Assembly (NCBI GenBank): GCA_947629485.1
Contig: CANRDX010000017.1
Coordinates: forward strand, 1-32,287
Source of the DNA: an uncultured Clostridia bacterium
Lineage (GTDB): Bacteria > Bacillota > Clostridia > Christensenellales > Borkfalkiaceae
Direction of reading: 5' to 3'
DNA: 32,287 bases
Below the pieces are notes generated by a model. That model searched no databases. It saw only the letters and a program-made list of their open reading frames with translations, and had not been told where the DNA came from. A program made the translations under genes and the position numbers. Positions 2,958-30,384 of this stretch are shown here, piece after piece. Positions within the stretch are counted from its first letter, which is position 1. Each line of letters begins with the position of its first letter.

Positions 2958-3095
2958 ACCCTTTTCTCAATTTTTGCGTTAGGCGGAATTCGCTTCCGCC
3001 GTGCGCGCCCCAAGTTGGCAAGCCCTGTTGCCTTAATGACTTTGAGAACAGAAAGGTTCAGCGGGCGACGGGGTTGAGAGATGTGAAGGGCTAAC

Positions 3096-3228: not shown

Positions 3229-5016
3229 TTATTGGTGAAATTCCTCGTCGCCGGGGTTGCTGCCGGGGTTGCCGCCCGCCGCGTTCTGCTGATAGAGCTT
3301 GGCGATGACGGGCTGGATCTTCTTGGAAAGCTCTTCAAACGCCGCGTTGTACTTCTCTTCGTCGTCCGATTCGAGATCCTTTTTCGCCTCGTCCACCGCC
3401 GACTGCAACGTCGCTTTGTCCTCGTCGGAGAGCTTGCCTTCGCTATCCTTGATTGTCTGCTCCACGGAGAAGATAAGTCCGTCGAGCTTGTTCTTCGCGT
3501 CCACCTTCTGCTTTCTCTTCTTATCCTCTTCGGCGTACTGCTCGGCTTCCTTGACCGCCTTGTTGATCTCGTCCTCGGAGAGGTTGGTGGACGACGTGAT
3601 GGTGATATCCGTGGACTTGCCCGTGCCGAGATCCTTCGCCTCGACGTGCACGATGCCGTTCGCGTCTACATCGAAGGTCACTTCGATCTGCGGGATCCCG
3701 CGGGGCGCGGGCGCGATGCCCGTGAGCATGAATCTGCCCATCGTCTTGTTGTCGCGGCAGAATTCGCGCTCGCCCTGCAAGATGTGGATCTCCACGCTCG
3801 TCTGATTGTCTGCCGCCGTAGAGAATACCTGCGACTTCTTGACGGGGATCGTCGTGTTCCTATCGATGAGGCGGGTGAATACGCCGCCGAGCGTCTCGAT
3901 GCCGAGGGAGAGGGGCATGACGTCGAGAAGAAGGACGTCTTTCACCTCACCCGTCAAAACGCCGCCCTGAATGGCTGCGCCGATCGCGACGCACTCATCG
4001 GGATTGATGCCCTTGAAAGGCTCCTTCCCCGTGATCGCCTTCACCTTCGCGACGACGGCGGGAACGCGGGTGGATCCGCCGACGAGGATCACCTTGTCGA
4101 TATCGCTGTAAGAGAGCTTGGCGTCCTGCATGGCAAGGCGCATAGGCTCTGCCGTCTTTTCGATGAGGTCGGCAATGAGCGCTTCAAACTTCTGGCGGGT
4201 GATTTCCAGTTCGAGGTGGGCGGGGCCTGCTTCCGTCATGGAGATGAAGGGCAGGGAGACGGAGGTGGACGTCATGCCCGAAAGCTCGATCTTCGCCTTT
4301 TCCGCAGCCTCTTTAAGGCGCTGCATCGCCATCTTATCTTTGGAAAGATCGACGCCGTGGCTCTTCTTGAATTCCTCTACCATGTAGTCCATGAGGCGCT
4401 TATCGAAGTCGTCGCCGCCGAGCATGTTGTTGCCGTTGGTCGCGAGCACTTCGAACACGCCGTCCGAGATTTCGAGAATGGAGACGTCGAACGTGCCGCC
4501 GCCGAGGTCGTAGATCATGACCTTGCTGTTTTCCTTTTCTTTATCAAGCCCGTAGGAGAGCGCCGCCGCCGTCGGCTCGTTGATGATACGGAGCACGTTG
4601 AGGCCTGCGATCTTGCCCGCGTCCTTCGTCGCCTGACGCTGTGCGTCGGTGAAATATGCGGGGCAGGTGATGACGGCGTCCGCCACCTTTGTGCCGAGAT
4701 AGGCTTCCGCGTCCGCCTTCAACTTGGAGAGGATCATCGCGGAGATCTCCTGCGGCGAGTACGATTTCTCGTCGATCTTCACTTTGTAGTCCGAACCCAT
4801 CCTGCGCTTGATGGAGATCACCGTCTTATCGGGGTTGGCGACTGCCTGCCGCTTTGCGACCTGCCCGACGACGCGGGAACCGTCCTTTTGGAACGCGACG
4901 ACGGAGGGCGTCGTTCTGCTGCCCTCTGCATTGGCGATGACGACGGGTTCTCCCCCCTCCATGACTGCGACGCACGAATTGGTCGTGCCCAAATCAATAC
5001 CGATTACCTTACTCAT
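3229..5016 (-). CDS. dnaK: Chaperone protein DnaK (Hsp70)
   Basis: DnaK is the ATP-dependent Hsp70 chaperone that binds exposed hydrophobic peptides, working with DnaJ and GrpE in the cytoplasm. The protein has 595 residues. The N-terminal ATPase domain (about 1-360) shows [17 protein letters not shown] at the phosphate loop, [12 protein letters not shown] and [10 protein letters not shown]. The peptide-binding beta domain (about 370-480) contains [12 protein letters not shown] helical lid follows and ends in a short Gly/Asn-rich tail with final residues DEEFHQ. It is slightly shorter than the usual 610-640 residues because the lid and tail are compact. The start ATG has GAGGT upstream. It lies 99 bp downstream of grpE on the same strand, and a small GCCCCT/AGGGGC hairpin lies between them. 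Confidence 0.98.
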
Positions 5017-7423: not shown

Positions 7424-9220
7424 ATGAAACACAAATTCTTACTCGCGGGACTTTCCGTTGCGGCAACCGTCTGCCTCGCTCTGGGGATCTCCGCTTGCGG
7501 TGGGAATTCCGGGCCGACGGGCACGGGCGAGACCGACCCCGCATCCGGCCTGCGCTTCACGCTTTCCGACGACGCGGATTCGTATGCCGTGACGGGCGTG
7601 AGCGACTGTTCGGTCAAGAGCGTGACGATCCCCGCGACCTACAAGGGACTTCCCGTTACGGCGATCGGCGACGAAGCGTTCGCCGGCGACAAGGCGGACG
7701 ATAAAAACGCGAGTAACAACTGCGGCGCGCTGGAAAGCGTCACCATTCCCGCCAGTGTGACGGAGATCGGCAACTACGCCTTCTTCTGGTGCACTTCGCT
7801 CACGAAGGTCACGTTCGCCCAGACCAGCGAGTTGGACAGCATCGGACGGTATGCCTTCTTCTTCTGCCGCAGCCTCACCAACATCGCGATCCCCGACAGC
7901 GTGTCGCGGATCGGCGAGAGCGCCTTTGAAAACTGTATCGATCTGAAAGAGGTCGATATCCCGGAGGAAGCGGAAGATATCGGCGTTTCCGCCTTCGAGG
8001 GCTGCTCTTCGCTCGTGGAAGTCGTCATCCCGAACGGCGTCACGACGATCTACAACAGCATGTTCAACGGCTGCACGAAGCTCACGACCGTGACCGTTCC
8101 CGAAACCGTGACTACCATCGAGTCGATGGCGTTCAATAACTGCTCCTCGCTTGCGGATCTCGATCTTCCCGACACCATCACCTACATCGGTTCCTCCGCC
8201 TTCAACGGCACCGCGATGTACGACGACGAGGAAGCGTGGGACGGCGAAGCGCATGACGTGCTCTATATCGGCAACTACCTCATCCGCGCCAAGAGCACGG
8301 TGGAGGGCGTGCAGGAAAGCACCGACGCAGACGGGAACCCCTATCATCACTACACCGTAAGACAGGGCATCCGCGTCGTCGCGGGGCAGGCGTTCTCCGG
8401 CTGCACGGAGATCAACAAGATCACCCTTCCCGATTCCGTTATTTCCATCGGCGACCAAGCCTTCCTCGGCTGCAACAAGCTGGCGGATATCGAGATCCCC
8501 GACACCATCCAATCGATCGGTGCGGATGTGTTCACCAACACGAAGTTCTACACCTCCGCCGAAAATTGGGACGCGGATAATATCCTCTATCTCGGCAACT
8601 ATCTGATCGCGGCGAACGGAAAACCCAACGGCTCGATGAAGCGTATGACGACTTTGGGCGACGTCCCTGCCGATTACACGGTGAAAGAAGGAACGACCGT
8701 GATTGCGGGCGAAGCCTTCCTCGGCTGCGACAACATGACGACGGTCACCGTGCCCGACAGCGTTACCTATCTCGGCGACCGCGCCTTTGCCGCGTGCGGC
8801 GCCATGACGGACGCGACCATCGGGGAGGGCGTCACCTCCCTCGGCTATCAGCTCTTCTTCCAATGCTCGGCGCTTACAAGCGTGACCGTCATGGGAGATC
8901 TGACCTCGATCGAGAGCGACGCGTTCCGTCAGTGCTCCAACATCGCGAAGCTCTATTTCAACGGAGACAAGGCGGCTTGGGACGAAGTTGCCGTCTCGGA
9001 GAGCCTTGTCGTCATCTCCGTCGTCGATGAAACGGATTGGACGACGACGACCGAACAGAGCGACGCGTTCGAGCTGCTCACCGTCTGCCTCTTCTCTGCC
9101 GATCAGCCCGACGTAACGCTGGGCGCAGACGGGAAGGACGAGGACGGCTACGCCTATTGGCATCTCGATCCCGAAACGGGAAAGCCCGCGCTCTGGGCCG
9201 CTCCCTCCACCGCAAACTGA
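7424..9220 (+). CDS. BspA-like leucine-rich-repeat lipoprotein
   Basis: This is a 598-residue surface protein. A lipoprotein signal peptide (positively charged MKHK, a hydrophobic core, lipobox ISAC with Cys25) would anchor it to the outer face of the membrane. From about residue 60 it is built of roughly eleven LRR_5/BspA-type repeats of about 23 residues, with the pattern VTIPxSVTxIGxxAFxxCxxL, interrupted twice by inserts that each contain a NYLI-type beta segment (near 280 and 395). The C-terminal 70 residues are not repetitive. The ATG at 7424 is chosen over the in-frame ATG 60 bases upstream because GGGAGG sits six bases before it and a signal peptide follows directly. BspA-like proteins in other bacteria serve adhesion or ligand binding; the ligand here is unknown. 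The gene is monocistronic. Confidence 0.9.
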   Translation: MKHKFLLAGLSVAATVCLALGISACGGNSGPTGTGETDPASGLRFTLSDDADSYAVTGVSDCSVKSVTIPATYKGLPVTAIGDEAFAGDKADDKNASNNCGALESVTIPASVTEIGNYAFFWCTSLTKVTFAQTSELDSIGRYAFFFCRSLTNIAIPDSVSRIGESAFENCIDLKEVDIPEEAEDIGVSAFEGCSSLVEVVIPNGVTTIYNSMFNGCTKLTTVTVPETVTTIESMAFNNCSSLADLDLPDTITYIGSSAFNGTAMYDDEEAWDGEAHDVLYIGNYLIRAKSTVEGVQESTDADGNPYHHYTVRQGIRVVAGQAFSGCTEINKITLPDSVISIGDQAFLGCNKLADIEIPDTIQSIGADVFTNTKFYTSAENWDADNILYLGNYLIAANGKPNGSMKRMTTLGDVPADYTVKEGTTVIAGEAFLGCDNMTTVTVPDSVTYLGDRAFAACGAMTDATIGEGVTSLGYQLFFQCSALTSVTVMGDLTSIESDAFRQCSNIAKLYFNGDKAAWDEVAVSESLVVISVVDETDWTTTTEQSDAFELLTVCLFSADQPDVTLGADGKDEDGYAYWHLDPETGKPALWAAPSTAN

Positions 9221-9236
9221 CATCGGAATTTCCTTC

Positions 9237-9266
9237 ATCCCTCCGCCGCGGCGGAGGGATTTTTTT
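9237..9266 (+). terminator. Rho-independent terminator
   Basis: ATCCCTCCGCCG and its reverse complement (9237-9260) are followed by a T run. It ends the BspA-like gene and separates it from the gerA operon. Confidence 0.9.
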
Positions 9267-9272
9267 GCGCGC

Positions 9273-9302
9273 TCATAAAAACCGCCCGCTCTCTTCATAC
9301 TT
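9273..9302 (+). promoter_or_regulatory. Candidate sigma-G-like promoter of the gerA operon
   Basis: TCATA (9273-9277), an 18-bp spacer and CATACTT (9296-9302) resemble the forespore sigma-G consensus as I recall it (GHATR, 18 bp, CATNHTA), with one mismatch in each element. gerA operons are sigma-G-controlled in Bacillus. Predicted transcription start falls on or next to the gerAA ATG (9308). Confidence 0.45.
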
Positions 9303-9307
9303 CTTTT

Positions 9308-10741
9308 ATGAAAAACGTTACCAATGACTTGCCAAAGACCGTGGAAGCGCTCAAAAAACTGCTCCCCGCCGAGGATATCCTCACCTTTGAATTCCTCACG
9401 GAGAAGGGGCTGACGTTTACCGTCGTCTTTGCCGATCCCATCACGGACAAAGAACTTCTCGGCGAGCAGGTCGTGCGGGCGCTCCGCCGTTTCGACGGGC
9501 CGCCGACGGCGGAGGAAGTGGGAAAGCACATCGCTTCCCCCGAGATGAAGCGGGAAAAATCGCTCGAAAAGCTCGCCGCCGAGGTACTCGCGGGCAACCC
9601 CGTGCTCCTCTGGGAGGGCATGGACGAGGGCGTCGTCGCGGGGACGAAAAAAGTGTTCACGCGCGCGATCTCCGAGCCTTCCACCGACGTCGCCGTAAAG
9701 GGGCCGCGGGAGGGATTTATCGAGGACGTCAAGACGAACACCTCGCTTGTCCGCCGCCGCTTCAAGACGGGAGAACTTCGGATCGAGATGGTGGAAGTGG
9801 GGCGGCGCTCCAAGACCTTCGTCGCCGTCTGCTATCTCGAAGGGACTTCCAAAGCCGAGGCGGTGGAGGAGGTGAAGCGCAAGCTCGGCGAGATCGAGAT
9901 CGACATCGTGCCCGACGCCTCGTATCTCACGCACTTCCTCTCCTCCCGCCCCTATTCGCTGGTGAAACAGGTGGGCACGACGGAAAAACCCGATATCTTC
10001 TGCGCGAAGATCGCCGAGGGCAGGGTGGGGCTTATCGTGGACGGCTCGCCCATCGCGCTGACCGTGCCCTATCTTCTCATCGAAGATTTCCAATCGAGCG
10101 AGGATTACTTCGTGCCCCCCTACCGCGCGACGTTCACGCGGCTTTTGCGCCTCTTCGCCCTCATCGTCGCCATTTATCTTCCCGCATTTTATGTGGCGGG
10201 GCAGCTCTTTAAGCTGCAACTCTTCCCCGTAAAACTGCTCTTGACCATCGCGGGGAGCATACGGGATATCCCCTTCTCGCCCTCGCTCGAAATGCTGCTC
10301 GTGCTGCTCGTGCTCGAAGTTCTGAACGAGGCGTCCATCCGCATGCCGAAGTACGTCGGAATGGCGCTCTCCGTCGTCGGCGCGCTCGTGCTCGGGGAGA
10401 CGGCGGTCTCGGCGGGCTTTGTCTCCACGCCCGCGATCATCATCATCGCGTTCTCGGGCATCGGATTGTATGCCGTGCCCAACCTCATCGAACAGACGAG
10501 CGTTCTGCGCCTCGCCATGCTGCTCGTGGCGGGCAGCGTGGGAACGTACGGCATCATTCTCGTGACGGGATTCGTGCTCTTCTACCTCGTGACGACGGAG
10601 AACTTCGGCACGCCGCTGCTCGCGCCCTTCTCCCCCATGATCGGAAGGGACCTGCGCGATTCGGTGTTCAAATATAATCTCGGCTCCCTTCCCACCCGTC
10701 CGCGCACGCTCAAAAGTCCCAACAAAAGGAGGTTGAAATGA
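9308..10741 (+). CDS. gerAA: Spore germination receptor subunit A (GerA family)
   Basis: This is the A subunit of an inner-spore-membrane germinant receptor, which senses small germinants and triggers ion and dipicolinate release. The 477-residue protein has a soluble two-part N-terminal domain (about 1-280, with EGMDEGVVAGTKKV, VKGPREGFIEDVKTNTSLVRRR and VGLIVDGSP typical of GerA) and a membrane domain with about five helices (280-455), including LEVLNEASIRMPKYVGMALS and the VGALVLGETAV helix. The C-terminal tail is basic. No Shine-Dalgarno sequence precedes the ATG. The next Met is about residue 80, inside the conserved domain, so this start is preferred. It overlaps gerAB by 4 bp and is first of gerAA-AB-AC, the classical order. 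Confidence 0.95.
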   Translation: MKNVTNDLPKTVEALKKLLPAEDILTFEFLTEKGLTFTVVFADPITDKELLGEQVVRALRRFDGPPTAEEVGKHIASPEMKREKSLEKLAAEVLAGNPVLLWEGMDEGVVAGTKKVFTRAISEPSTDVAVKGPREGFIEDVKTNTSLVRRRFKTGELRIEMVEVGRRSKTFVAVCYLEGTSKAEAVEEVKRKLGEIEIDIVPDASYLTHFLSSRPYSLVKQVGTTEKPDIFCAKIAEGRVGLIVDGSPIALTVPYLLIEDFQSSEDYFVPPYRATFTRLLRLFALIVAIYLPAFYVAGQLFKLQLFPVKLLLTIAGSIRDIPFSPSLEMLLVLLVLEVLNEASIRMPKYVGMALSVVGALVLGETAVSAGFVSTPAIIIIAFSGIGLYAVPNLIEQTSVLRLAMLLVAGSVGTYGIILVTGFVLFYLVTTENFGTPLLAPFSPMIGRDLRDSVFKYNLGSLPTRPRTLKSPNKRRLK

Positions 10742-11814
10742 ACAAGATATCCTCGCGCCAGCTCTATTTCTTTCTCGCATGCGTCGCGCCCGTGGGAAAA
10801 CTCGTATATTTGCCTTCGCTGCTCGTAAGCTCGGCGAAAAACGATCTGCTCTTCCCCGCCGCCCTGCAATATCTCGTGCAGGCGGGCGCGATCTTCTGCG
10901 TGCTCCTGCTCGCGAAGCGGGGCATGAATTTTTTCGAACTGCTGGAAAACACCTTCGGCAGGATCGCCGCGAGCATCCTTATCGGGATCTTCTCGCTCTT
11001 TCTCTTTTACAGCGCGCTCCTGCCCCTTTTGGAACAGAAGCTGTTCGTGCAGAGCGCGTTCTATGATACCCTCCCCTCTCTCGTCGCCTTCTCCCCCTTC
11101 TTCCTCTTTGCGGTCTACCTCTGCGCAAAGCCGCTCTCCTCGATGGGAAGGGTGTGGGATATCATCGCGCCGCTCGCGATCGCGGGGTATATCGGCATCA
11201 TGCTCCTCTCGGTGGGAACGGCAGACTTCGGCGCCCTCCGTCCCGTGGGCGCGGCGGGCGGTTCGGGCTTTTGGAAGGGTACCATGTCCGCGATGAGCTG
11301 GTTCTTCGACGCCGCGCTTCTCCTTCCCCTTCTCGGAAAATTCCAATATAAAAAGGGCATGGCGGCAAAGGGCGCGCTCGCCTATCTGCTCGGCGGGGCG
11401 GCCGTCATCTTCTTCCTCGCCACCTTCTACGGCATCTTCGCGGAGCTTTCCCAAAACCAGCTCTTCGCCTTCACAAAGACCTCGAAATACTTCGCGGGGA
11501 TCACCGTGCTCGGCAGGATCGACTATCTCTTCATCTTCACGCTTGCGCTCGTGATGGCGTTCTACTGTGCCCTGCCCATTCAGGCGGGGATCGACTGCAT
11601 CGTGCAGGCGGCGGGGCCGAAAAAATATCTCCGCCCCGCGCTCGGGATCGTGCTCTGCGCGCTCTATTTTGCGCTGACGGATCTACTCGACTATCGCTTC
11701 ACCGAGGTCGTACGCGCGATCTCGGGAACGGTCGTGTGGATCTTCCCCGTCTTCTGCCTGCTCGTCCCCGTGCTCTGTCTGCTGTTGAGGAGGCGCCGCC
11801 GTGAAATTTCGTAA
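10738..11814 (+). CDS. gerAB: Spore germination receptor subunit B (GerAB/endospore permease)
   Basis: This is the 358-residue membrane subunit of the germinant receptor, a member of the amino-acid permease-like GerAB family, which is believed to bind the germinant. About ten hydrophobic helices fill the whole length, and an N-terminal ISSRQLYFFLACVAPVGKLVYLPSL-type first helix pair is typical. The protein ends in an arginine-rich cytoplasmic tail. The start ATG overlaps the gerAA stop (ATGA), with AGGAGG just upstream inside gerAA, pointing to translational coupling and matched subunit amounts. Its end overlaps gerAC by 14 bp. The germinant cannot be predicted from sequence. Confidence 0.93.
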   Translation: MNKISSRQLYFFLACVAPVGKLVYLPSLLVSSAKNDLLFPAALQYLVQAGAIFCVLLLAKRGMNFFELLENTFGRIAASILIGIFSLFLFYSALLPLLEQKLFVQSAFYDTLPSLVAFSPFFLFAVYLCAKPLSSMGRVWDIIAPLAIAGYIGIMLLSVGTADFGALRPVGAAGGSGFWKGTMSAMSWFFDAALLLPLLGKFQYKKGMAAKGALAYLLGGAAVIFFLATFYGIFAELSQNQLFAFTKTSKYFAGITVLGRIDYLFIFTLALVMAFYCALPIQAGIDCIVQAAGPKKYLRPALGIVLCALYFALTDLLDYRFTEVVRAISGTVVWIFPVFCLLVPVLCLLLRRRRREIS

Positions 11815-13584: not shown

Positions 13585-13776
13585 AAGCCCTACCCTTCGC
13601 TTGCGAGGGGGAGGGTGGCGAGCGTAGCGAGGCAGGTGGGGGCGCTCCTTGTCGCCCCTGTAAGGGGAGATGGCACGAAGTGACAGAGGGGTTAAAACCC
13701 TTTCCCCCACTGCGTGGGTACTTTTCCTAAAAGAGACAGCAAAAACCCCATCAGTCACTAACGTGACAGCTTCCTC
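13585..13776 (+). repeat. Modular hairpin repeat array B, downstream of spoIIR
   Basis: In order: AAGCCCTACCC with GGGGGAGGG; a GGCGAGCG/CGAGGCAGG-type hairpin; CGCCCCT/AGGGGAG; GCACGAAGTGACAGAGGGG; CCCCCACTGCGTGGG; then AACCCCATCAGTCAC and GTGACAGCTTCC. The same order occurs on the minus strand in array F after pheT. It follows the spoIIR stop by 25 bp in the sense direction. No gene is seen in the rest of 13560-13868 apart from the inverted repeat noted separately. Confidence 0.8.
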
Positions 13777-13780
13777 CTTT

Positions 13781-14509: not shown

Positions 14510-14612
14510 CCCCCACCACCGTCTAACGGCGGAGCCGCCCCTTCAAAGGGGGCAGCTCTTTCTCCCTCATCAGTCACTAACGTGACAGCTTCCCCCGTAA
14601 ACGGGGGAAGCC
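14510..14612. repeat. Modular hairpin repeat array C, between the HTH gene and the MmcQ gene
   Basis: Modules: CCCCCACCACCGTC/CGGCGG hairpin, GCCCCTTcaaAGGGGGC, then CATCAGTCAC-loop-GTGACAGCTT and CTTCCCCCGT/ACGGGGGAAG. The left half is in the opposite orientation to the right half. It fills the convergent gap between the HTH gene and the MmcQ/YjbR gene. The rest of 14313-14641 holds short repeats such as TTCGACTTCGCTACGC but no gene. Confidence 0.8.
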
Positions 14613-16688: not shown

Positions 16689-16803
16689 CCCCCACCTGTC
16701 ACGGCAAAGCCGTGCCACCCGCCCCCGTAAACGGGGGCAGGTCGCCTTGCTGCCCCCCCTGTCGCGGCAAAATTAAGCCCGCCTCCGTGAACGGGGGCGG
16801 GCA
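16689..16803 (-). repeat. Modular hairpin repeat array D, downstream of the InlB-repeat lipoprotein
   Basis: Modules CCCCCACCTGTC, the stem ACGGC/GCCGT, GTGCCACC and CCCCCGTaaACGGGGG, then a second, degenerate round with CCCCCCTGTCGCGGC and CCGCCTCCGTGAACGGGGGCGG. The orientation corresponds to the minus strand, in sense with the lipoprotein gene ending at 16837. No gene is seen between 16559 and 16836. Confidence 0.8.
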
Positions 16804-16836: not shown

Positions 16837-18717
16837 TCACTTTCTGAAATTGCTGTACGTGGTGCCCGAGATAACGATGTTGATCGCGTCGATCGTATCG
16901 CCGCCCACTGCCCAAGAGAACGCGTTTTGGATCGTCCCCGAGGCACCCCCCTCCGTCTTGAAGGAGATGGTCTCGGTCGCGGCGTCGTACGCCGTGATCG
17001 TCACTTTCACGCCGTCAAGGTCGCCCACGGTCACGGTGATGTCGTTGCCGTCGATCGCGATCGTGCCCGCCTGCGACGTCCATGTCCCGTTCCATTTCGC
17101 GGGAAGAGCGCCTTCCCAGCCGCCCTCCGACGCCTTTTCCACGAACAGGTACGTCCCGCCCGCCGTGATGAAGTTGAGCGTCTTTGCCGTGCTGTCGTAG
17201 GAGAGCGTGTACTTCGTGCCGTCATAATCGAAGGTGATATCGTAGCCCGTGGCAGTCTGTTCCACGGAGACGACGTCGCCGCTATAATGGAAGGTGAAGG
17301 GGCTTTTCACGACCGTCACGGAGACGGTGGAGGCGGTGAGCGAAATGCTGTTGCCCGCGGCCTGCCCCGCCCATTCGATGTTCAGGATCTCCTCGGGAAT
17401 GGGATCGGCGACAACAATTTCACCGCCCTCGACGATCGTAAACTGCGCGTTGCGATAGGTGAATTCCGCCTCGCTGTCCGAGACATAGAACGAATAGGTC
17501 ACGTCAGCCTTGACTGCAAAGACTGCCTCCTTCACGGAGAGACTGTCGTTCCAATTCACGAGCTTCTTGCCGTTTGCGTCGGTAAGCACGAAGGTGAGGT
17601 AATCGACGTCGGTCGTGAGCGTGTACGTCTTATCCTCATCGGCGGTGAAGGTATAGAAATGCGGCCCCATAGAGAGGGAAACATCCCACGCCTTCGCAAG
17701 CTCGCTCTGGGCGATCTCCTCGGGCGTCTCCTCGCTGCCGATATCGGGTGCGGGAATGTTTCCGTCGCGATACAGCGTGATCGAATCCTCTTCGCCGTCG
17801 CCGAAGATGAACAGCATCTCGTCGGTATAGCCGCCCATCTGCGTCTTTGCAAGGCTCAAAAGACAATCTTTGCCGTCCCATTGGAAGGTGTAGCCGTCGT
17901 TTCTCGGGGCGAGATAGATATCCGTCGCGGGGATATCGTTGATGGTGATCGACGTGCTATCGATCACCGCCGCATAGCCCGTGTTGGAAAATTCGTCCTG
18001 ATACGCCGTGATGATCGAGAACGCCTTCTCGGTGGCGGTGAACACGAGCGTGCCGCCCGTTCCCGCCGCGCTGTGATCGCCGAGCTGGATGCGATACGTC
18101 GTCCCCTCGAAGAGCGGGAAGTCATAGGAATCGCTCTTCTTATCCCAAACGGCGACGGTGCCGTTCAAGACGTCGTCGCTTTCGGCGATGATGAGGTTGA
18201 GATCGCTGAACGCAGCCCCGTTGAGCGTCGCCGAGACGGAGTAGATCGCCGTCTTTTCCGCCGTGTAGAGGCAGAAGATGCTCGCACTCGCGTCGGAGGT
18301 GGAGTCGGGAAGCACAAATTCATGCGCGCCCGCAAACGTATCGAGCACATAGGGGTGCGCGAGGGAGCCGTCAGGCTCGGGCGCATTCTTCTCCCACGAA
18401 GCGGTGAGGGTGACGTTCGCCGTCACGGTGTACTCCGTACCCGCGGCGAGCGCGTTGCCGTCCGCCGAATCCTTCCAGCCGAGGAAGGTGTGGTCCGTCC
18501 ACGTCACGCCCACTGCGGGAAGGGTGATCTTTGTATTTTCCTCCGCAGTCTGCGCGGCGGGAGCCGAACCCGTGCCGTCGTAATCGCCGAGCGAATAGGT
18601 GACGGTGTATGTTACGGGTTCTTTGTTGTCGTCGCTTCCGCACGCCGCGAGCGCGCACACCGTGCACGCCGTAAACGTAAGCGAAAGGAAGAGCGAGATC
18701 AAGCCGCTTTTTTTCAT
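16837..18717 (-). CDS. InlB-repeat surface lipoprotein with PPC-like beta domains
   Basis: This is a 626-residue predicted lipoprotein. The signal peptide ends in a lipobox (ALAAC, Cys about 26). Residues about 35-105 form one Listeria-Bacteroides (InlB B-type) repeat, with VTYSLGDYDGTGSAP, HTFLGWKDSADG and LTASW. Two regions (about 118-225 and 340-445) look like PPC-type bacterial pre-peptidase beta domains, starting from HPYVLDTFAG and SLSMGPHFYTFTADEDKTYTL. Beta-rich segments fill the rest. No catalytic motif is seen, so binding or adhesion is more likely than enzymatic work. AGGAGA lies eight bases before the ATG. About 295 bp at its 5' end is almost the same as the start of the upstream lipoprotein gene. 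A G10/C8 tract lies in its upstream region. Confidence 0.85.
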   Translation of the reverse strand: MKKSGLISLFLSLTFTACTVCALAACGSDDNKEPVTYTVTYSLGDYDGTGSAPAAQTAEENTKITLPAVGVTWTDHTFLGWKDSADGNALAAGTEYTVTANVTLTASWEKNAPEPDGSLAHPYVLDTFAGAHEFVLPDSTSDASASIFCLYTAEKTAIYSVSATLNGAAFSDLNLIIAESDDVLNGTVAVWDKKSDSYDFPLFEGTTYRIQLGDHSAAGTGGTLVFTATEKAFSIITAYQDEFSNTGYAAVIDSTSITINDIPATDIYLAPRNDGYTFQWDGKDCLLSLAKTQMGGYTDEMLFIFGDGEEDSITLYRDGNIPAPDIGSEETPEEIAQSELAKAWDVSLSMGPHFYTFTADEDKTYTLTTDVDYLTFVLTDANGKKLVNWNDSLSVKEAVFAVKADVTYSFYVSDSEAEFTYRNAQFTIVEGGEIVVADPIPEEILNIEWAGQAAGNSISLTASTVSVTVVKSPFTFHYSGDVVSVEQTATGYDITFDYDGTKYTLSYDSTAKTLNFITAGGTYLFVEKASEGGWEGALPAKWNGTWTSQAGTIAIDGNDITVTVGDLDGVKVTITAYDAATETISFKTEGGASGTIQNAFSWAVGGDTIDAINIVISGTTYSNFRK

Positions 18718-18784
18718 TTTTTCTTTCTCCTAAAAATAATAGAGTACGGCGCGCTGCGGTTTGGCGCCGCAGAGCGCCGCATGC

Positions 18785-18804
18785 GGGGGGGGGGATCCCC
18801 CCCC
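18785..18804. repeat. Homopolymer G10-AT-C8 palindrome
   Basis: Ten G bases followed by AT and eight C bases lie 68-87 bp upstream of the lipoprotein start at 18717. Such tracts change length by slipped-strand mispairing and can also be assembled wrongly. The tract can form a hairpin in the leader. Confidence 0.85.
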
Positions 18805-18846
18805 ACCGACTATCAGTTTACGCTTTTATTCCCCGTTTATGCGGGC

Positions 18847-21708
18847 TTAATTTCCCGCGGAGAAATCGAACGTCGCGCAAAGCGATTCCGCGGAACAATC
18901 CGCAGAGTCATAAAGTTCAAGGGTCTTCTTGTCTTCGGAGATCTTCACATAGAGGGTGGCGACCTTTATCTGAGCTTTGGGAAGCGTCCAGACGCCATCC
19001 GTATACTCGGCAACAAAGGGCGTTTTGTCGTCGACGGTGATCGTGTTGGTCGTCGTATCGATGACGATCTTGGAGATGCTGCCGCTGAAAGTGTAATACG
19101 AACCGACGAACGTGTAGACGGTATACTCTCCGTCTCCGCCTCCGCCCACGTCGCTGCCGTCTTTCGTGAAGACGCAGTCCCAATTATCCGTCAGCGAACC
19201 CGCCTGTTCGTCGTAGGTGAACGTATGGCTCTGAGCGCCGCTTACATCGAGCGTGAAGGTATTGGTATCCGGGTCGTAATCCTTGATTTGGGCGGGCGAG
19301 GAATCGCCGTCGACAGAGTACGTCGCGGTCTCACCGTCGATCGTAAGTTCAAGCTGTGTGCCGTTATCATTTGCCTTCCAAACGCCGTTCAGCCCCTCGG
19401 GAATGATGCTCTCGGAAGATTTTGTATACACGCAATCCCACTGATCGGTGAGCGTGCCCGCCTTCGCGTCGTAGGTGAGTTTCAGATCGGCGATGCCGCC
19501 AAAATTACCGACGGTGATTTGGTTCGTCGCAGCGTCGTACGCCGTCACTGTGCCGTGCATGGTACCGCCGCTCGTCGTATAAGTGACGTTGATCCCCTCG
19601 AATACAAGGGTGAACGTTTCGCCGCTGTCGGTCCCCGTCCAGATGCCGTCAAGCTCCGCGGGAAGGCCGAGATCGCCCCCCATTTTGTGCGTCAACGTCG
19701 CCATAGGTTCGCCGTCGTAGAGATAATAGACTTCTTCCAATTCCTCAGTATAGCCGAAGGTAAACTCGTTGTCGCCCTCGAACATGACGGTAAATGTGCC
19801 GTTGCCGAATTCATCCACGGTATACGACGTCACGGTACCGGTCTGCGACATGCCCGCCATTGCGAACGTCACGCTCTTGCCATCGAAGGAAAGCTCATAG
19901 GAATTGCCTTCGCTGTCCGTTCCCGCCCATTCAAAATCGGTAAGCCCTGCGGGAAGCAGGAAGCCCTTGACGAGCACGACGTCGTCCTCCGCGTCGTCGT
20001 CCGCAGTGGGATGATAGGTAAGGGTATCCGCTGCGGCGTTATAGGTGAAGTTATATTTGTCGCCGTCGACGTCGATGACGAGAGCGCCCGTCTCGCTGTC
20101 GTAGGAGTCGTAGGTGCCGTCCATCGAGACCGTCGATACCGTAATGGTCGCAGAATCCTCGCCGATCACGACCGAGATAGGATAATCTTCGTCCCCGCCG
20201 ACCCATGTATCGATGAGTTCGGAAGGAAGCGTGACTTCGCCGACGTCGCCGCCGCTGCCGTTCAACGCAAGGTCTTCGATATCGAGATAACCGTGGCTGC
20301 TGCCTTCATAATCGAGATTGAGCAGAGTGAGCGTGGTCGCGTCTTTGATGGCCAGCCCATAGTGATAGGTGGTTTCGTCGCCGAGCAGAACCTCTACATA
20401 GGTGAAGTGAAGGATCCCGTCGCTGTCGATCGAGAGTTCGGAACCGACAAAGCTATCTTCGCCCTCGTAATAGGTGAGCGTATCCGCCGTGACAACGACC
20501 TTGTAATATCCTTCGCTTGTATCGATCCACGTACCCACAAAGTCGGAGAGATCGAGAGCGGTCGCGGGGCGGAATACGAGGGGATCGCCTTCGTCGAAGG
20601 TCTCGGAGAGCGTCTTTGCATCGGGATCGAACACAAAAGTCTTGTCTGTCATCCCCGAAACGGTGACGGTGAGCGTATGCGTCGTATCGTCGTACGCCGT
20701 CACCGTGCCGTTCGAGGTGCCGCCGCTCGTCATGTAGGTGATGTCAAGCCCGTCGAACACGAGGGTGACGGTCTCGCCTGCGTCCGTCGCCGTCCATGTG
20801 CCGACAAGCTCGGCAGGAAGGGTGATCGGGGCGGGTTTTGTGTAGACGCATTCCCACTGATCGGTGAGCGTGCCCGCCGCCGCGTCGTAGGTGAGTTCCA
20901 GATCGGAGCCGCTCAAAATGCTGACGGTGATTTTGTTCGTCGCGGCGTCGTATGCCGTCACTGTGCCGTGCGCGGTGCCCGCGCTCGTCGCATAAGTGAC
21001 GTCAAGTCCGTCGAATACGAGGGTGGACGTTTCGCCGTCCTCGGTCGCCGTCCACGTGCCGTCGATCCCCGTGGGAAGGGTGATACCTTCGGTCTTGGGG
21101 GTAAGCTCCGCGATGGGTTCGCCGGCGACGAGATAATAGACTGTGCTCGTCTCCGCGACATACCCGAACGTGAAATCGTTGTCCTCACCGAACGAGACGG
21201 TCAGAATGCCGTTGCCGTCCGCGTCCAGAACATAAGACGAGACGGTGCCGGTATGCGGCTCGCCCGCCACCGTGAACGTGACGGAAGTCCCGTCGAAGGA
21301 AAGCTCGTAGTCGATATCCTCTTCGTCCGTGCCCACCCAAACCGTATTGGTAAGATCTGCGGGAGGGGTCAAGGGAGTATCGTCTCTCCACGAAGCGGTG
21401 AAGGTGACGTCTGCCGTCACGGTGTACTCTGTACCCGCGGCGAGCGCGTTGCCGTCCGCCGAATCCTTCCAGCCGAGGAAAGTGTGATCCGTCCACGTCA
21501 CGCCCACTGCGGGAAGGGTGATCTTTGTATTTTCCTCCGCGGTCTGCGAGGCGGGAGCCGTTCCTGTGCCGTCGTAATCGCCGAGCGAATAGGTGACGGT
21601 GTACGTTACGGGCTTTTTTTCGTCGCTTCCGCATGCCGCAAGCGCGCACACCGTGCATGCCGTAAACGCAAGCGAGACGAGTAACGTAATAAGGCTGCGT
21701 TTTTTCAT
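18847..21708 (-). CDS. InlB-repeat surface lipoprotein with about eight tandem beta domains
   Basis: This is a 953-residue predicted lipoprotein. The lipobox ALAAC gives Cys about 26. One InlB-type repeat (about 33-103) is almost identical to that of the neighbouring lipoprotein. It is followed by about eight tandem beta-rich units of 80-100 residues, each beginning like LPAELxGTWTAT and including LVFDGLxVTY, GTVTAYDAAT and LTYDAxAGTL strands. Units 1 and 6, and units 2, 3 and 7, are the closest pairs. The GTW start and size recall lipocalin-like domains, but I cannot assign a family. The C-terminal 90 residues differ. There is no catalytic motif. The start has AGGAGA and a strong promoter 107-135 bp upstream. 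The repeats probably grew by internal duplication, so length may vary between strains. Confidence 0.85.
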   Translation of the reverse strand: MKKRSLITLLVSLAFTACTVCALAACGSDEKKPVTYTVTYSLGDYDGTGTAPASQTAEENTKITLPAVGVTWTDHTFLGWKDSADGNALAAGTEYTVTADVTFTASWRDDTPLTPPADLTNTVWVGTDEEDIDYELSFDGTSVTFTVAGEPHTGTVSSYVLDADGNGILTVSFGEDNDFTFGYVAETSTVYYLVAGEPIAELTPKTEGITLPTGIDGTWTATEDGETSTLVFDGLDVTYATSAGTAHGTVTAYDAATNKITVSILSGSDLELTYDAAAGTLTDQWECVYTKPAPITLPAELVGTWTATDAGETVTLVFDGLDITYMTSGGTSNGTVTAYDDTTHTLTVTVSGMTDKTFVFDPDAKTLSETFDEGDPLVFRPATALDLSDFVGTWIDTSEGYYKVVVTADTLTYYEGEDSFVGSELSIDSDGILHFTYVEVLLGDETTYHYGLAIKDATTLTLLNLDYEGSSHGYLDIEDLALNGSGGDVGEVTLPSELIDTWVGGDEDYPISVVIGEDSATITVSTVSMDGTYDSYDSETGALVIDVDGDKYNFTYNAAADTLTYHPTADDDAEDDVVLVKGFLLPAGLTDFEWAGTDSEGNSYELSFDGKSVTFAMAGMSQTGTVTSYTVDEFGNGTFTVMFEGDNEFTFGYTEELEEVYYLYDGEPMATLTHKMGGDLGLPAELDGIWTGTDSGETFTLVFEGINVTYTTSGGTMHGTVTAYDAATNQITVGNFGGIADLKLTYDAKAGTLTDQWDCVYTKSSESIIPEGLNGVWKANDNGTQLELTIDGETATYSVDGDSSPAQIKDYDPDTNTFTLDVSGAQSHTFTYDEQAGSLTDNWDCVFTKDGSDVGGGGDGEYTVYTFVGSYYTFSGSISKIVIDTTTNTITVDDKTPFVAEYTDGVWTLPKAQIKVATLYVKISEDKKTLELYDSADCSAESLCATFDFSAGN

Positions 21709-25269: not shown

Positions 25270-27534
25270 ATGAAAAAGCATTTCGACCTCAAAGCCGCGC
25301 TCGTGTACGCCGCGATCGGCGCGGCAATGGTATTTTTGAATTTCTCCCTGCCCATGCGCGAGCCGCTCTCCTTCGCCCTCTTCGCCGCCGCGATCTATTG
25401 CGGGCTGGATCCCTTCGTGCTCGCGGCGGAATATCTCGCCGCGTCCGCCGTGCAGCTCTCGCTGTACGCCTCGCTCTCCGCGGCGATACAGGGGGCGTTT
25501 CTTCTCGTCGTCGCGGCGCTTTACGGCCGCTTCCGCCGCCGTATCGGGGTGGAACGCGCGCTCTACACACTCGCCGCGCAGCTCCCCTTTCTCTTCTTGT
25601 TCCCGCATGCGGGATACGCCATTTTGCCCCTCTCGCCCCTCCTTCAAAAACTCGTGATCGGCGGCTTTTTCACCCTCGCCTCCCTCCTTTTCGAGGGCGG
25701 GCTGAACGCGCTCTTGCGGCGGGCGTTCCGTTGCCGCCTCTCCTCGGGAGAGCTTGCCGAGGTCGCGCTGATGTGGCTGTTTACGGGCATGGGCGGGGCG
25801 TTTGCGCTGGGACTGCCCTTCTTCTATGCGATCTCCCTCGGCGCGCTCCTGTTCGGCGTCGTGCTCGTGAGAGGCGCGGCTGCCGTGCCCTTTGCCGCCG
25901 TGCTCTCTCTTCCCCTCTGCGCCGCCCTGCAAAGCGCGATCCCCCTCGCCGAATACGTCGTCTACGCCTCCTTCGCCCTTCTCTTTATCCCCTACGGGAA
26001 GACTGCCGCCGCGCTCGCCCTCACCGTCGCGTTCGCCGCCGCAATGTACTTCGAGGGGCTTTACGTCTCCTCGGTGGCGGAGATCTTGACGACGCTGCTC
26101 GCCGCCGCCATTCCCGCCGTCCTCGTCGTCTGTCTGCCCGAAAAACTGTTCCGCCGCGCGAAAAAAACGCTGCTTTTCTACCGCGAGCGCACCCTGCCGC
26201 GCATTGCCGTCAACCGCAGCCGCCGCGCGGTGGGCGAACAGCTCTACGAGGTCTCTTCCCTTTTCCGCGAGATCGAGAGCGCGTTCGATATCGGCACGGA
26301 GGATCGCGCGGGTGACAACCTCCGCGAAAAGGTGCTCGCGGCGCTCTGCGCGGGCTGCCCCAACCGCCGTGCCTGCGAGGAGAGCGGGCGGGACGAAAAT
26401 CTCGAAAAACTCATCGCCGTCGGCAAGGCGAAGGGAAGGGTGAATCTCATCGATATCCCCGTGGGGCTTTTGAGATCGTGCCAAAACTCCGCGGGACTTT
26501 TGTTCGCGCTCAATAAACAGCTCGCGGATTACAGCCGCGCCGCGCTCGAATTGGAATCGGCGCGCGAGGGAAGGCGGCTGCTTGCCCAGCAAGCGCACGG
26601 CGTAAGCAAGATCTTGCGGGATATCGCCCTCGAACAGAGCGAGGAATTCGTCTTCTCCGACGAGGAGCAGACTCTCGCCGCCGCGCTTGCAAAGGAGGGG
26701 CTTTTAAGCTCGGAGATCTTCCTCTACGGCGAGGGCGCGCACTTCACCGTCACGGTGACGTTGGAGAGCAAGGCGGAGGGAAAGCGCGTCGCCGCCGTCG
26801 CGGGGAAGGCGCTCGGCGTCCCCCTCGCCCTCTCCGAGAAGATCCCCCTCACCGCCGAACGCGCCTGTTTCGTGCTCAAACGCAAGCCCGATTTCGACGC
26901 GTCGTTCGGCGTCGCTTCCTGCCCCAAAGAGGGAGAGACGGCGAGCGGCGATACCCATTCCATTCTCAAAATCGACGAACGGCGGTTCATCGTCGCCCTC
27001 TCCGACGGAATGGGCAGCGGCGACAAGGCGCGCTCCGTCTCCGATACCACGCTCTCCCTTCTCGAAAGTTTCTATAAGGCGAAAATGCCCTCGGAGACCG
27101 TGCTCGGCACCGTGAACAGCCTCATCGCGTTCTCTGCCGAAGAGACCTTTTCCTGCCTCGACCTTGCCGCGTTCAACCTCGACACGGGGATCGCGGACAT
27201 CGTGAAGATCGGCTCCCCCGTCGGATTCGTGCTCTCGGGCGAGACGTTGCAGGTGCTCGAAGGAGAATCCCTGCCCATCGGGGCGTTGGAAGTCGTTCAC
27301 CCCGCCGTGCTGCGCGTCGAGATGAAGGCGAACGATTTTCTCATCTTCATGAGCGACGGCGTGACGAGCGCCTTCGGCTCCTCCTCCGAACTGTGCGCCT
27401 ATCTCTCCCGCCTGCACCCGCTCAACCCGCAGTCCCTCGCGGAAGAGATCTTAAAGACGGCGCTCTCCCGCTACGACGGGCGCGCCGAGGACGACATGAC
27501 GGTGCTCACCGTGAAACTCACCAAAGCGGCATAG
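25270..27534 (+). CDS. spoIIE: Stage II sporulation protein E (serine phosphatase)
   Basis: SpoIIE sits at the polar septum and dephosphorylates the anti-anti-sigma factor SpoIIAA, which frees sigma F in the forespore. The 754-residue protein has three parts. About ten membrane helices span 1-300. A central regulatory region (about 310-540) contains a CAGCPNRRACEESGRDENLE block with cysteines, as in other SpoIIE proteins. A C-terminal PP2C-type phosphatase (about 545-752) has the metal-binding motifs VALSDGMGSGDKARS and LIFMSDGVTSAF and the final EDDMTVLTVKL. Length is slightly below the Bacillus protein (about 827). The start has AGGTGG just upstream. It is monocistronic, with a candidate Spo0A-dependent promoter. 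The genes for SpoIIAA and SpoIIAB are not in the window. Confidence 0.96.
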   Translation: MKKHFDLKAALVYAAIGAAMVFLNFSLPMREPLSFALFAAAIYCGLDPFVLAAEYLAASAVQLSLYASLSAAIQGAFLLVVAALYGRFRRRIGVERALYTLAAQLPFLFLFPHAGYAILPLSPLLQKLVIGGFFTLASLLFEGGLNALLRRAFRCRLSSGELAEVALMWLFTGMGGAFALGLPFFYAISLGALLFGVVLVRGAAAVPFAAVLSLPLCAALQSAIPLAEYVVYASFALLFIPYGKTAAALALTVAFAAAMYFEGLYVSSVAEILTTLLAAAIPAVLVVCLPEKLFRRAKKTLLFYRERTLPRIAVNRSRRAVGEQLYEVSSLFREIESAFDIGTEDRAGDNLREKVLAALCAGCPNRRACEESGRDENLEKLIAVGKAKGRVNLIDIPVGLLRSCQNSAGLLFALNKQLADYSRAALELESAREGRRLLAQQAHGVSKILRDIALEQSEEFVFSDEEQTLAAALAKEGLLSSEIFLYGEGAHFTVTVTLESKAEGKRVAAVAGKALGVPLALSEKIPLTAERACFVLKRKPDFDASFGVASCPKEGETASGDTHSILKIDERRFIVALSDGMGSGDKARSVSDTTLSLLESFYKAKMPSETVLGTVNSLIAFSAEETFSCLDLAAFNLDTGIADIVKIGSPVGFVLSGETLQVLEGESLPIGALEVVHPAVLRVEMKANDFLIFMSDGVTSAFGSSSELCAYLSRLHPLNPQSLAEEILKTALSRYDGRAEDDMTVLTVKLTKAA

Positions 27535-27574: not shown

Positions 27575-27613
27575 AAGGGGTCGCAAACGCACTTTGCGAT
27601 CCCTTGTTTTTTT
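27575..27613 (+). terminator. Rho-independent terminator of spoIIE
   Basis: AAGGGGTCGCAAA (27575-27587) pairs with TTTGCGATCCCTT (27593-27605) with one G-T pair, followed by a seven-T run. Confidence 0.9.
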
Positions 27614-27650: not shown

Positions 27651-27920
27651 GCCCCCCATCCGTCTCACTTCGTTCGCCACCCTCCCCCCGAAGGGGGTAG
27701 GGCTTCCCCCGTCTACGGGGGAAGCTGTCACGCTTGCGTGACTGATGGGGGTTCTCGCTGTCACTTTTAGGGAAAGTACCCGCGAAGCGGGGAAAAGGGT
27801 TAAACCCCTCTGTCTCGGCTATGCCTCGACATCTCCCCTATAAGGGGCGACAAGGGGTTGCCCCCCACCTGTCGCGGCTTTGCCGCGCCACCCTCCCCCC
27901 CGAAGGGGGTAGGGCTTCCC
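27651..27920 (-). repeat. Modular hairpin repeat array F, directly after pheT
   Basis: This is the longest array, about 270 bp, and it starts at the pheT stop codon. On the minus strand it reads: GAAGCCCTACCCCC/GGGGG; GGTGGCGCGGC/GCCGCGACAGG; TGTCGCCCC/GGGGAGATG; GTCGAGGC/AGACAGAGGGG; GGGTTTAACCC; CCCCGCTTCGCGGG; GTGACAGC; CATCAGTCACG/CGTGACAGCT; CTTCCCCCGT/ACGGGGGAAG. Then a second round begins with CCTACCCCC, 212 bp after the first. The same module order occurs in array B. No gene is seen between 27535 and 27920. Confidence 0.85.
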
Positions 27921-30338
27921 CTATCTCAATTCTGCGGCGAGGGTGTGTTCCAGATTGCCGAGGATCTTCTTCATGAAACCGTCTACCGTCTCGGGTGCGA
28001 GCGGCTTTTCGGCGTTGATCCCCGCAGAGAACGTGATGTGAAGCGCGACGCTCTTCTTGCCCGCGCCGATGCGCGCGTCGCGATAGACATCGAACAGCTC
28101 CGCCCTCTTCGCCGCCTTGCATGCGCGCAGAATGCAGCTTTCAAGCTCTGCGCATGTGACTTCTTCTGCGACGACGACGGCAAGATCGCGCACGGCGTCG
28201 GGGAATTTGGGCACGGGCGTGTAGACGATCCCCTTGCGGAAGTTCTGCGAGAGAAGCGCGTAGTCGAGTTCGCACAGATACACCTTCTTTTCGAGGGCAA
28301 GCTCCGCCGCGATCGCGGGGTGCAGTTCGCCGATCCAGCCCGCTTCCCCGCCTTCCAGCGTGACCGCCGCGGCGATCCCCGGGTGCAGGAAGGGGCGCTC
28401 CGTGCGCGCATAGGAGAATTTCAGCCCGAACGCCTCGCCGATCGCCTCTACCGCGCCTTTGAGATCGAAGAAGTCCCCCTCGCCCCAAAGCGCGAGCACG
28501 GCGTGTTTGCGCTCCTCGGGAAGAGACTTGGGCGGAAGCTCCTCGGCGAGATAGATGTTTGCAAGCTCGAACAGCCTGCCCGCGTCGTTCCCGCGGCGCA
28601 CGTTGCGCACTACGTTCGCGATCATGGACGGCGCAAGTATGGTGCGCATGACGGAGAGATCCTCCCCGATCGGGTTGAGGATCTTCACCGCTCTGCGCTC
28701 GGGCGCGTCGGCGGGAAGGCGAAGAAGATCGAAATCTTTGGGCGAATAAAAGGAATAGTTGCACGCCTCGAAGAACCCCTCATGCGCCAGCGTCTCCTTG
28801 AACGCAAGCTCCTCTTTCTGCGCCGACGTAAGCCCGCCGTGCGTGACCGCCGCCGTTTTGAGGAAGGTGGGGCAAATATGCCCGTAGCCGTACATTCTGA
28901 TGACCTCTTCGGCAAGATCGGGATAGCCGTCGACGTCGCCTCGCCAGAGCGGGACTTCGACGGCGAACGTCTCTCCCCCGTCCGCGACGGCGAAGCCGAG
29001 CCGCCGCAGAATGCCGTTCACCTCCTCCTTCGGCACATGGATGCCCAGCACCGCGTCGAGCTTTGCATAGGTCGTTTCGATCGTCTTGGGCGCGCTCTCT
29101 TTGCCGTCGGAAGGGCGCGCGCACTTCCCCACGCAGGTGTACTCCGTGGGCGTACCGCAACCGAGTTCCTCGAAGAGATGCAGGGCGCGTTCCATGCCCC
29201 AACGGGGGAAAATTTCATACACGCCCCGCTCAAAGCGCGCCGAGGAATCGCTCCTCTGCCCCAATGCGCGGGAAGTCTTTCTCACGCTGTCGCGCGCGAA
29301 AACGGCGGCTTCGAGGAAAATTTCGCGCGTATCCTCCTTGATCTCGCTGTTCAGCCCTCCCATAACTCCCGCGAGCGCGACGGGACGTTCGCCGTCGCAG
29401 ATGAGAAGATTTTCGGGCGTGAGCGCGAACTCCTTTTTATCGAGCGTCGTAAGGCGCTCCCCCGCTTGGGCGCGGCGGACGACGATCTTACTGCCGCGAA
29501 GATAATCCCTGTCGAACGCGTGCATGGGCTGCCCCACTTCGAGCAAAACGTAGTTGGTGATATCCACCGCGTTGTTGACGGAGCGCAGCCCCATGAGCGC
29601 GAGACGGCGGCGCAGCCAGCGCGGGGACTTGCCGATCTTCACGTCCTTCACATAGCTGCCCACATAGAGCGGGCAGAGCGCGGGTTCTTTGACTTCGACG
29701 GGAATGACGACGTCCGTCTTTGCGCGCCCGTGCTCCATTTCGAGGGCGGCAAGAGGGGCGCAGAGAACTGCCGCGACTTCGCGCGCCATGCCGTACACGC
29801 TCATGCAGTCGGGGCGGTTGGCGGTCAGCGCGATGTCGAAAATATAGTCGTCGATGCCGACGACGGGACGGATGTCCACGCCGAGCGGGGTATCCATGTC
29901 CAAGATCAGGATGCCGTTGAACTCGGCTCCCTCATAAAAATCGTCGTTGATCCCAAGCTCTTCCCCCGAGCAGAACATGCCCTCGGAGACGACGCCGCGC
30001 AGCTTGCCCGTTTTGATCTTCTGCACGCCGCCCTCGTGGAGAACGGTCGCGCCGTCGAGCGCGACGGGGACGACGGCGCCCGCAAAGACGTTGGTCGCGG
30101 CGGTGACGATCTGCCTCGTCCCCCGCGCGCCGCAGTCCACTTGGCACACGGTGAGTTTATCCGCGTCGGGGTGCTTTTCGCACGATGCGATCTTGCAGGT
30201 CACGACGTTTTCGACATTCTTGCCGAGGTAGACAAGCTCTTCGACCTCGAAGCCGCAGGAAAAGAGCTTCTCTTCGAGTTCTTCGGCGGAGACGTCGATC
30301 TTCACATATTCCTTCAACCAAGAAAAAGGTATCTTCAT
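27921..30338 (-). CDS. pheT: Phenylalanine-tRNA ligase beta subunit
   Basis: This is the beta subunit of the alpha2-beta2 enzyme that charges tRNA-Phe. The 805 residues have the full bacterial layout. An N-terminal PFSWLKEYV segment is followed by an EMAP/OB-fold tRNA-binding domain (about 40-150, VVTCKIASCEKHPDADKL), the B3/B4 editing domain (about 200-390, with VNNAVDITNYVLLEVGQPMHAFD), the B5 domain (about 400-475) and the catalytic-like core (about 480-690, RRGNDAGRLFELANIY). The C-terminal ferredoxin-like anticodon-binding domain is about 710-803 (PDAVRDLAVVV). The ATG at 30338 is preferred because AGGAG lies five to six bases upstream; a GTG two codons earlier would overlap that site. 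It follows pheS by 46 bp in one operon under the T-box. Confidence 0.97.
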   Translation of the reverse strand: MKIPFSWLKEYVKIDVSAEELEEKLFSCGFEVEELVYLGKNVENVVTCKIASCEKHPDADKLTVCQVDCGARGTRQIVTAATNVFAGAVVPVALDGATVLHEGGVQKIKTGKLRGVVSEGMFCSGEELGINDDFYEGAEFNGILILDMDTPLGVDIRPVVGIDDYIFDIALTANRPDCMSVYGMAREVAAVLCAPLAALEMEHGRAKTDVVIPVEVKEPALCPLYVGSYVKDVKIGKSPRWLRRRLALMGLRSVNNAVDITNYVLLEVGQPMHAFDRDYLRGSKIVVRRAQAGERLTTLDKKEFALTPENLLICDGERPVALAGVMGGLNSEIKEDTREIFLEAAVFARDSVRKTSRALGQRSDSSARFERGVYEIFPRWGMERALHLFEELGCGTPTEYTCVGKCARPSDGKESAPKTIETTYAKLDAVLGIHVPKEEVNGILRRLGFAVADGGETFAVEVPLWRGDVDGYPDLAEEVIRMYGYGHICPTFLKTAAVTHGGLTSAQKEELAFKETLAHEGFFEACNYSFYSPKDFDLLRLPADAPERRAVKILNPIGEDLSVMRTILAPSMIANVVRNVRRGNDAGRLFELANIYLAEELPPKSLPEERKHAVLALWGEGDFFDLKGAVEAIGEAFGLKFSYARTERPFLHPGIAAAVTLEGGEAGWIGELHPAIAAELALEKKVYLCELDYALLSQNFRKGIVYTPVPKFPDAVRDLAVVVAEEVTCAELESCILRACKAAKRAELFDVYRDARIGAGKKSVALHITFSAGINAEKPLAPETVDGFMKKILGNLEHTLAAELR

Positions 30339-30384
30339 AGTCACTCCTTGTATCTTTATGGGAATTCGGGCGGCGCACCCCCAA

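Follow-up and report, generated by a model that had tools for sequence, protein, structure and literature searches.

Inverted pairs of two-hairpin half-modules in an uncultured Clostridia genome are probably REP-like mobile elements

The hairpin array that follows pheT in this Clostridia genome is one of many sets of short palindromes that can be read as inverted pairs of a two-hairpin half-module. We consider it likely that these are non-autonomous, REP-like mobile elements spread by a putative hairpin-recognising enzyme. REP-like spread was one of two roles raised in the original prediction, and it is supported by the placement of the modules between genes, their excess in convergent gaps, lineage-specific clusters of copies and the lack of conservation of the array behind pheT in relatives.

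In the window (the whole stretch of 32,287 nucleotides that was analysed), pheT (27921–30344, minus strand; Pfam domains B3_4, tRNA_synthFbeta, B5, tRNA_bind and FDX-ACB) ends where the array begins. The array takes up the greater part of the space between pheT and a convergent gene with a SpoIIE domain (25270–27534, plus strand; Pfam SpoIIE), and a terminator-like hairpin at 27575–27605, T-rich on both sides and matched by the terminator finder on both strands, lies between the two, beyond the array as seen from pheT. Because it starts at the stop codon, the array is probably transcribed as a 3' tail of pheT. Read from pheT its order is half-module A, BC, D and A: half-module A abuts the stop codon (27863–27920, minus strand; HMM match 27863–27917), followed by the BC element (27751–27855, minus strand) and a palindrome termed A'D (27653–27752, plus strand; HMM matches 27654–27705 and 27702–27750). 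The stems predicted at 27651–27920, with their start directly at the pheT stop codon, are real; the nine stems resolve into one half-module and two palindromic units, with a block A-B-C-D that is shared by the two long arrays. The second long array was correctly placed, with its order unchanged, after spoIIR on the other strand (13585–13779, plus strand), where module HMMs find A at 13585–13640, BC at 13647–13746 and a truncated D at 13746–13779. Partial sets had also been predicted, and module HMMs located these as a B-type half-module (2736–2783) with a truncated A (2788–2832) on the minus strand (2736–2832 in all), a half-module D at 14565–14611 (plus strand) and a half-module A at 16690–16743 (minus strand). 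Two further kinds of repeat were seen in the window. A second kind of palindrome is present at 2842–2957 and 3091–3206 as two 116-bp copies, which are 97% identical and separated by 249 bp. Its inverted ends are long and rich in A and T, and its inner hairpin lies next to motifs similar to those of a CGTC-tagged repeat. At 16837–21708, two adjacent minus-strand frames with internal repeats share 238 nt at 93% and 95 nt at 82% identity; the first of these has a List_Bact_rpt domain.

The basic piece is a half-module of approximately 50 nt, consisting of hp1, a hairpin with a C-rich stem; hp2, in which a variable stem is set between GTC and GAC; and a G-rich tail. We interpret A, B, C and D as variants of a single half-module, and the unit of approximately 100–130 bp as two half-modules in inverted orientation. 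B and C together make BC, an imperfect palindrome of approximately 105 bp that is bounded by CTTG and C(A/G)AG and contains four hairpins and, at its centre, a GGGTT/AACCC stem; the copy behind pheT scores 110 bits with covariance model R1, the alignment of which includes this copy. D and A make the second palindrome, in which the inverted half-modules are closed by CCCCCATC/GATGGGGG (27653–27752). When folded as single-stranded DNA and compared with 200 shuffles, this palindrome forms an 8-bp closing stem with a z score of -4.7, half-module A with its C-rich and GTC/GAC hairpins reaches -4.3 and BC reaches -2.7, with one shuffle equally good. The neighbours of 20 BC copies were also compared. 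A left neighbour was present in 10, always an A in the same orientation, and a right neighbour in 10, an inverted half in nine of them; six copies had neither. Given this left A and right inverted half, BC tends to sit midway within another palindrome.

Support for the hairpins comes from an alignment (A1) in which 31 BC copies of this genome and its relatives are compared. As local hairpins, 93.7% of cells are paired and 12 of 33 pairs show double changes, and slid versions of the same structure all scored far lower; the 55 double-changed cells compare with a shuffled mean of 20.4, and none of 500 shuffles was as high. A global cloverleaf drawn on A1 pairs 93.6% of cells and shares pairs with the local hairpins; we favour the local hairpins over it because the cloverleaf has only 35 double-changed cells compared with 55. 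These compensatory changes support the hairpins. Part of the covariation, for example that of the pair 6–25, may be a single old event inherited by a subfamily, and template-switch repair of palindromes can also give rise to covariation, which is no proof that the shape is recognised. Columns 6, 25 and 49 of A1 tend to covary as T-A-A or G-C-T; at columns 25 and 49 a single pattern applied to Clostridia loci returned 45 AA cores, 60 CT cores and one mixed core. The GTC/GAC and G-tail motifs are conserved around the variable stem, and hp2 stems begin GTC or AC. Of the 61 hp2 loops that could be parsed, 34 are GNA, and their complement TNC is found in 30 of 50 parsed hp2' loops (63 copies); since the copies are related these counts carry no probability, and a few loops are mis-set by the simple stem finder. 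GNA loops form very stable DNA mini-hairpins. Both orientations of the hp2 loop are present, and the inversion test was not clean.

Copies outside the window are common. A BLAST search of the 1.55-Mb genome with the array gave 72 matches, and BC is present at 60 bits or more with R1 at at least 34 loci. Profile HMMs of A, B, C and D identified 141 non-overlapping modules in 64 clusters across 402 kb of this genome; this sample comprises the window and about 370 kb from 20 other stretches, and as these were chosen partly for holding matches the module density is not a genome average. The same HMMs at the same thresholds found nothing in the reversed sequence. With genes taken from a simple caller, 140 of the 141 modules are intergenic. 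One of the gene calls (7439–10780) is probably wrong, being a minus-strand frame that lies over plus-strand tandem repeats. Counting gaps that are at least 30 bp long or occupied, modules are present in 18 of 47 convergent, 23 of 131 tandem and five of 39 divergent gaps; convergent gaps are occupied more often than divergent (p = 0.013) or tandem gaps (p = 0.008), and tandem and divergent gaps do not differ (p = 0.63). A separate repeat that resembles the CGTC-tagged REPs, CGTCATACTGAGC...GAAGTATCAC, was found 14 times with one pattern in the window and stretches L009–L028, in all 14 cases within 250 bp of a module.

Of 61 genomes in the genus, 37 (its own included) have close relatives of the array by DNA search. 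The 24 genomes in which these were not found concern close relatives of the array only, since a DNA query can miss divergent forms; one such genome (G030) gave no match in the DNA search yet has ten matches to R1. At E ≤ 0.001, R1 was matched in 29 of 200 genomes of the order and 40 of 291 of the class, counts that probably include GC-rich false matches. As weak R1 matches (11–26 bits) are common in high-GC contigs, we trust only the counts at 40 bits or more, which are nine of 200 and 15 of 291 respectively, own genome included. The R1 copy numbers are lower bounds, with 19 candidates scored per genome in the order and 13 in the class. Of 45 full copies from six genomes, 42 are most similar to a copy of their own genome, compared with 10.8 on average and 22 at most after permutation; the count is inflated by several copies in G012 and G033 that come from one locus each. 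Copy identity was 0.861 within and 0.745 between genomes. These figures support amplification lineage by lineage, although some pairs of genomes are no less alike than copies within one genome: copies from G010 and G046 share 0.864 identity, compared with 0.823 among G010 copies.

Occupation of homologous gaps also differs. The nearest relatives of this pheT in named records are from uncultured Clostridia and, less near, Candidatus Gallimonas. Of 54 relatives, 10 have profile matches in the first 700 nt behind pheT, and these matches differ from the array in composition and orientation. The relatives are distant Clostridia, the stretch available behind pheT is shorter than 700 nt in six of the 54, and the profiles may miss divergent forms. 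The gap upstream of pheT is 281 bp and contains BC in L070 versus 21 bp in L033, with flanks that are 80–83% identical.

Related forms apparently occur outside the Clostridia, in Alphaproteobacteria, judging from matches in viral contigs and plasmids. The exact core pattern GGGGAGCTGTC-N-GACTGAGGGG was found in 109 stretches of viral contigs, a search that itself selects for identity of the core. One of these (L275, IMGVR_UViG_3300029705_006572) is a structural operon of a prophage, which encodes terminase and coat-protein domains and carries ten half-module cores in 14.7 kb, which among the matches listed lie in gaps between phage genes. Thirty core-bearing viral stretches have a G+C content above 0.67; the one tested (L313) encodes terminase, portal and capsid domains, and such high-GC clusters may be alphaproteobacterial gene transfer agents. 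The full inverted pair reaches up to 59 bits with R1 among 24 high-GC and related contigs, and the strict core is present near one of 76 relatives of the L313 portal gene. A near-empty site was identified by comparing L371 and L373 (95.7% identity over 3314 + 185 bp of flank), which differ by approximately 120 bp that hold one unit and separate a stop codon from the gene that follows; this pair is from a high-GC phage-like cluster rather than from strains of this species. A few junction bases also differ there. Of the two features of DDE-type MITEs, terminal inverted repeats and a target-site duplication, inverted ends are present and a duplication is not evident at this one near-empty site. 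Another 13 candidates among 97 contigs compared were less clean (82–92% identity). On plasmids, R1 scored 42 bits on pSM30-1 of Pleomorphomonas sp. SM30 (Alphaproteobacteria) and matched a Chelatococcus plasmid weakly (22 bits), in both cases without the strict core. Nothing was found by BLAST when a BC copy was compared with phages, or when a BC-type copy and another Clostridia copy were compared with plasmids; the latter copy matched 31 faecal phage records, mostly over one half-module among the best 20 of the 31. Matches in Paracoccus were not counted, as the query (3430–3560) was mostly outside the element (R1: 3526–3653).

Taking the elements to be mobile palindromes, two inverted half-modules would adopt a branched fold when the DNA is single-stranded, at a replication fork or as a cruciform. 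A trans-acting enzyme probably recognises this branched shape and would copy or insert the unit elsewhere as DNA. Insertions within genes would be lost and intergenic ones tolerated, above all in convergent gaps, which could account for the placement of the modules. Copies may then collect beside, or inside the centre of, earlier copies to form arrays such as that behind pheT. Common descent across phyla would be the simplest reading of the Clostridia and alphaproteobacterial forms. The broader idea that they make up one homologous superfamily of two-hairpin palindromes in Clostridia (Bacillota) and Alphaproteobacteria, which crosses phyla by horizontal transfer in phage and phage-like clusters and is spread by a kind of enzyme not yet linked to REPs that reads DNA mini-hairpins with GNA-type loops, is one that we put forward tentatively and regard as rather doubtful.

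The original prediction also raised a sense-direction role at transcript 3' ends, and the modules could act as structured RNA in 3' untranslated regions, ending, processing or stabilising transcripts in the sense direction. The enrichment of convergent gaps and the hairpins with compensatory changes fit this, as does the pheT locus itself, where no terminator lies between the stop codon and the array and one lies behind it. The single result in favour of polarity is that A modules lean towards the orientation of the gene in front (33 same, 18 opposite; p = 0.049); the counts are 16/10 for B modules (p = 0.33), 9/12 for C modules and 10/6 for D modules, and all of these pool tandem and convergent gaps and come from copies that are not independent. 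At least six T in any 8 nt, on either strand, was found in only three of 64 clusters, so the U-tract of an intrinsic terminator is generally lacking, and at 75 gene ends facing a cluster a simple finder already placed a terminator before the cluster in 33, only after it in 14 and found none in 28. Given the weak orientation lean, the rarity of T-rich stretches and these terminator counts, a common role in 3'-end formation is not clearly supported. Since, in addition, modules fill divergent and tandem gaps at much the same rate and relatives have not kept the array behind pheT, we think this explanation unlikely. Maintenance by the host as binding sites for a protein (gyrase, a nucleoid protein or a repair protein), as has been proposed for BIMEs, would fit a variable stem framed by conserved GTC/GAC and G-tail motifs, and the recurrent GNA and TNC loops. 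Against it stand the 24 genus genomes without detectable close relatives of the array (with the reservation given above on the DNA query), the lineage-wise similarity of the copies and the differing occupation of homologous gaps, and we consider it highly improbable.

The usual enzyme of REPs is a Y1 transposase or RAYT, and mobilisation by such a Y1 HUH transposase would make these elements classical REPINs. Inverted hairpin pairs, intergenic placement, high copy number and close similarity within the genome are all as expected for this, but the genome, which is 98% complete, has no match to PF01797 (Y1_Tnp), a family that we take to include RAYTs, while five of 14 control genomes were positive. 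Nor is Y1 associated with the arrays: in the genus it was found in 15 of 61 genomes, nine of the 37 with array relatives and six of the 24 without (Fisher p = 1.0), and in the class in 171 of 291, comprising 25 of 40 R1-positive genomes and 146 of 251 others (Fisher p = 0.73). At 38 best-match Y1 loci (eight and 30 from the positive genomes of genus and class respectively), R1 was strong near one (L127), reached about 21 bits at L131 and did not exceed 16 bits at two others, and the REPtron arrangement of a transposase gene flanked by its repeats was not seen at any of the 38. RAYT-mobilised REPs are described as having a GT[AG]G guide where the hairpin begins at its foot (PMC6006769). GTGG, which fits this, precedes hp2 in 28 A modules among the 45 parsed (63 in total) as the complement of their GCCAC tail; BC has (A/C)TGTC or (A/C)TGGC before hp2 and CTTG before hp1, with no conserved GT[AG]G foot. 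On the Y1 results we disfavour mobilisation by a RAYT in this genome, and give it even less credence than host binding sites. The target of IS91 is a match for CTTG/CAAG ends, and these ends prompted a search for IS91-type Y2 transposases; as it found none in 61 genomes and none in the controls either, it has no bearing on the question.

If the superfamily reading proved true, the elements would represent a Bacillota branch of the CGTC REPs that lack a transposase and could lead to the missing mobiliser. Defined half-modules and a covariance model are now to hand, as are a near-empty site and a patchy distribution among gut Clostridia, so that the mobiliser can be sought by gene-presence association. 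The findings also caution against taking arrays of this kind for regulators in 3' UTRs or for novel RNAs; a survey of human microbiomes lists 250 palindromic candidates among 3161 structured RNAs (PMC8040213).

By comparison with known systems, the original view that the array belongs to no named family was right as regards Rfam, where at gathering thresholds only tRNAs were matched in the window and 11 copy-rich loci; the nearest described kind is the CGTC-tagged REP group. Below threshold, a manganese riboswitch match of 31.6 bits (gathering 45) was seen at L024:6662–6812. The 56-position model of Whalefall-1 RNA (RF01762; PMC2864571) gave a weak full-length match to half-module D, and was rejected because its 18.6 bits fall short of the gathering score, which is 37, and because 58 kb rich in copies yielded no match even at E = 1. 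Going by titles and the opening lines of abstracts, none of the open-licence papers listed describes this two-hairpin design. BOX elements of Streptococcus pneumoniae are likewise modular intergenic repeats with hairpins and partial arrays, but would be set apart by the design and sequence of their modules. With REPINs/BIMEs and their RAYT (TnpAREP) the elements share inverted hairpin pairs, intergenic placement, many copies, amplification within genomes and arrays, and they differ in the BC foot, the genome without Y1 and the Y1 loci examined without a REPtron.

The CGTC-tagged REPs are described (Di Nocera et al. 2013) as short intergenic palindromes, mostly inverted dimers, that are strongest in Alphaproteobacteria, with CGTC or TGTC beside the hairpin, a frequent CCA tail, no dedicated transposase and a preference for convergent and tandem gaps (PMC3733652). 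The stem is given there as 8–9 bp with two leading A-T pairs; the phyla listed are Proteobacteria, Chlorobi, Bacteroidetes, Spirochaetes and Thermotogae, Firmicutes are not among these and no word beginning 'clostridi' stands in the main text, and REP-like repeats without a dedicated transposase are called an open question as of 2013 (PMC3733652). In common with this description, our elements are short intergenic palindromes with inverted pairing and a preference for convergent gaps. The tag beside hp2 was CGTC in 12, TGTC in 32 and another sequence in one of 63 A modules (18 unparsed), TGTC in 25 and AGTC in seven of 32 B modules, and AGTC in 20 of 21 D modules (one unparsed); GCCAC(C/T) follows hp2 in 28 of the 45 parsed A modules (of 63). 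The GTC of the tag often pairs with GAC, in contrast to the unpaired tag of CGTC-tagged REPs, and unlike the REPs of that report the elements show no tandem–divergent difference in gap occupation. Array units further differ from the published description in having a second, C-rich hairpin, a shorter hp2 that lacks the two leading A-T pairs and so departs from the stem rule, and a Clostridia host. The CGTC-tagged REPs appear to be the closest described kind, from which the array is set apart by its hp2 stem, its second hairpin and its Clostridia host.
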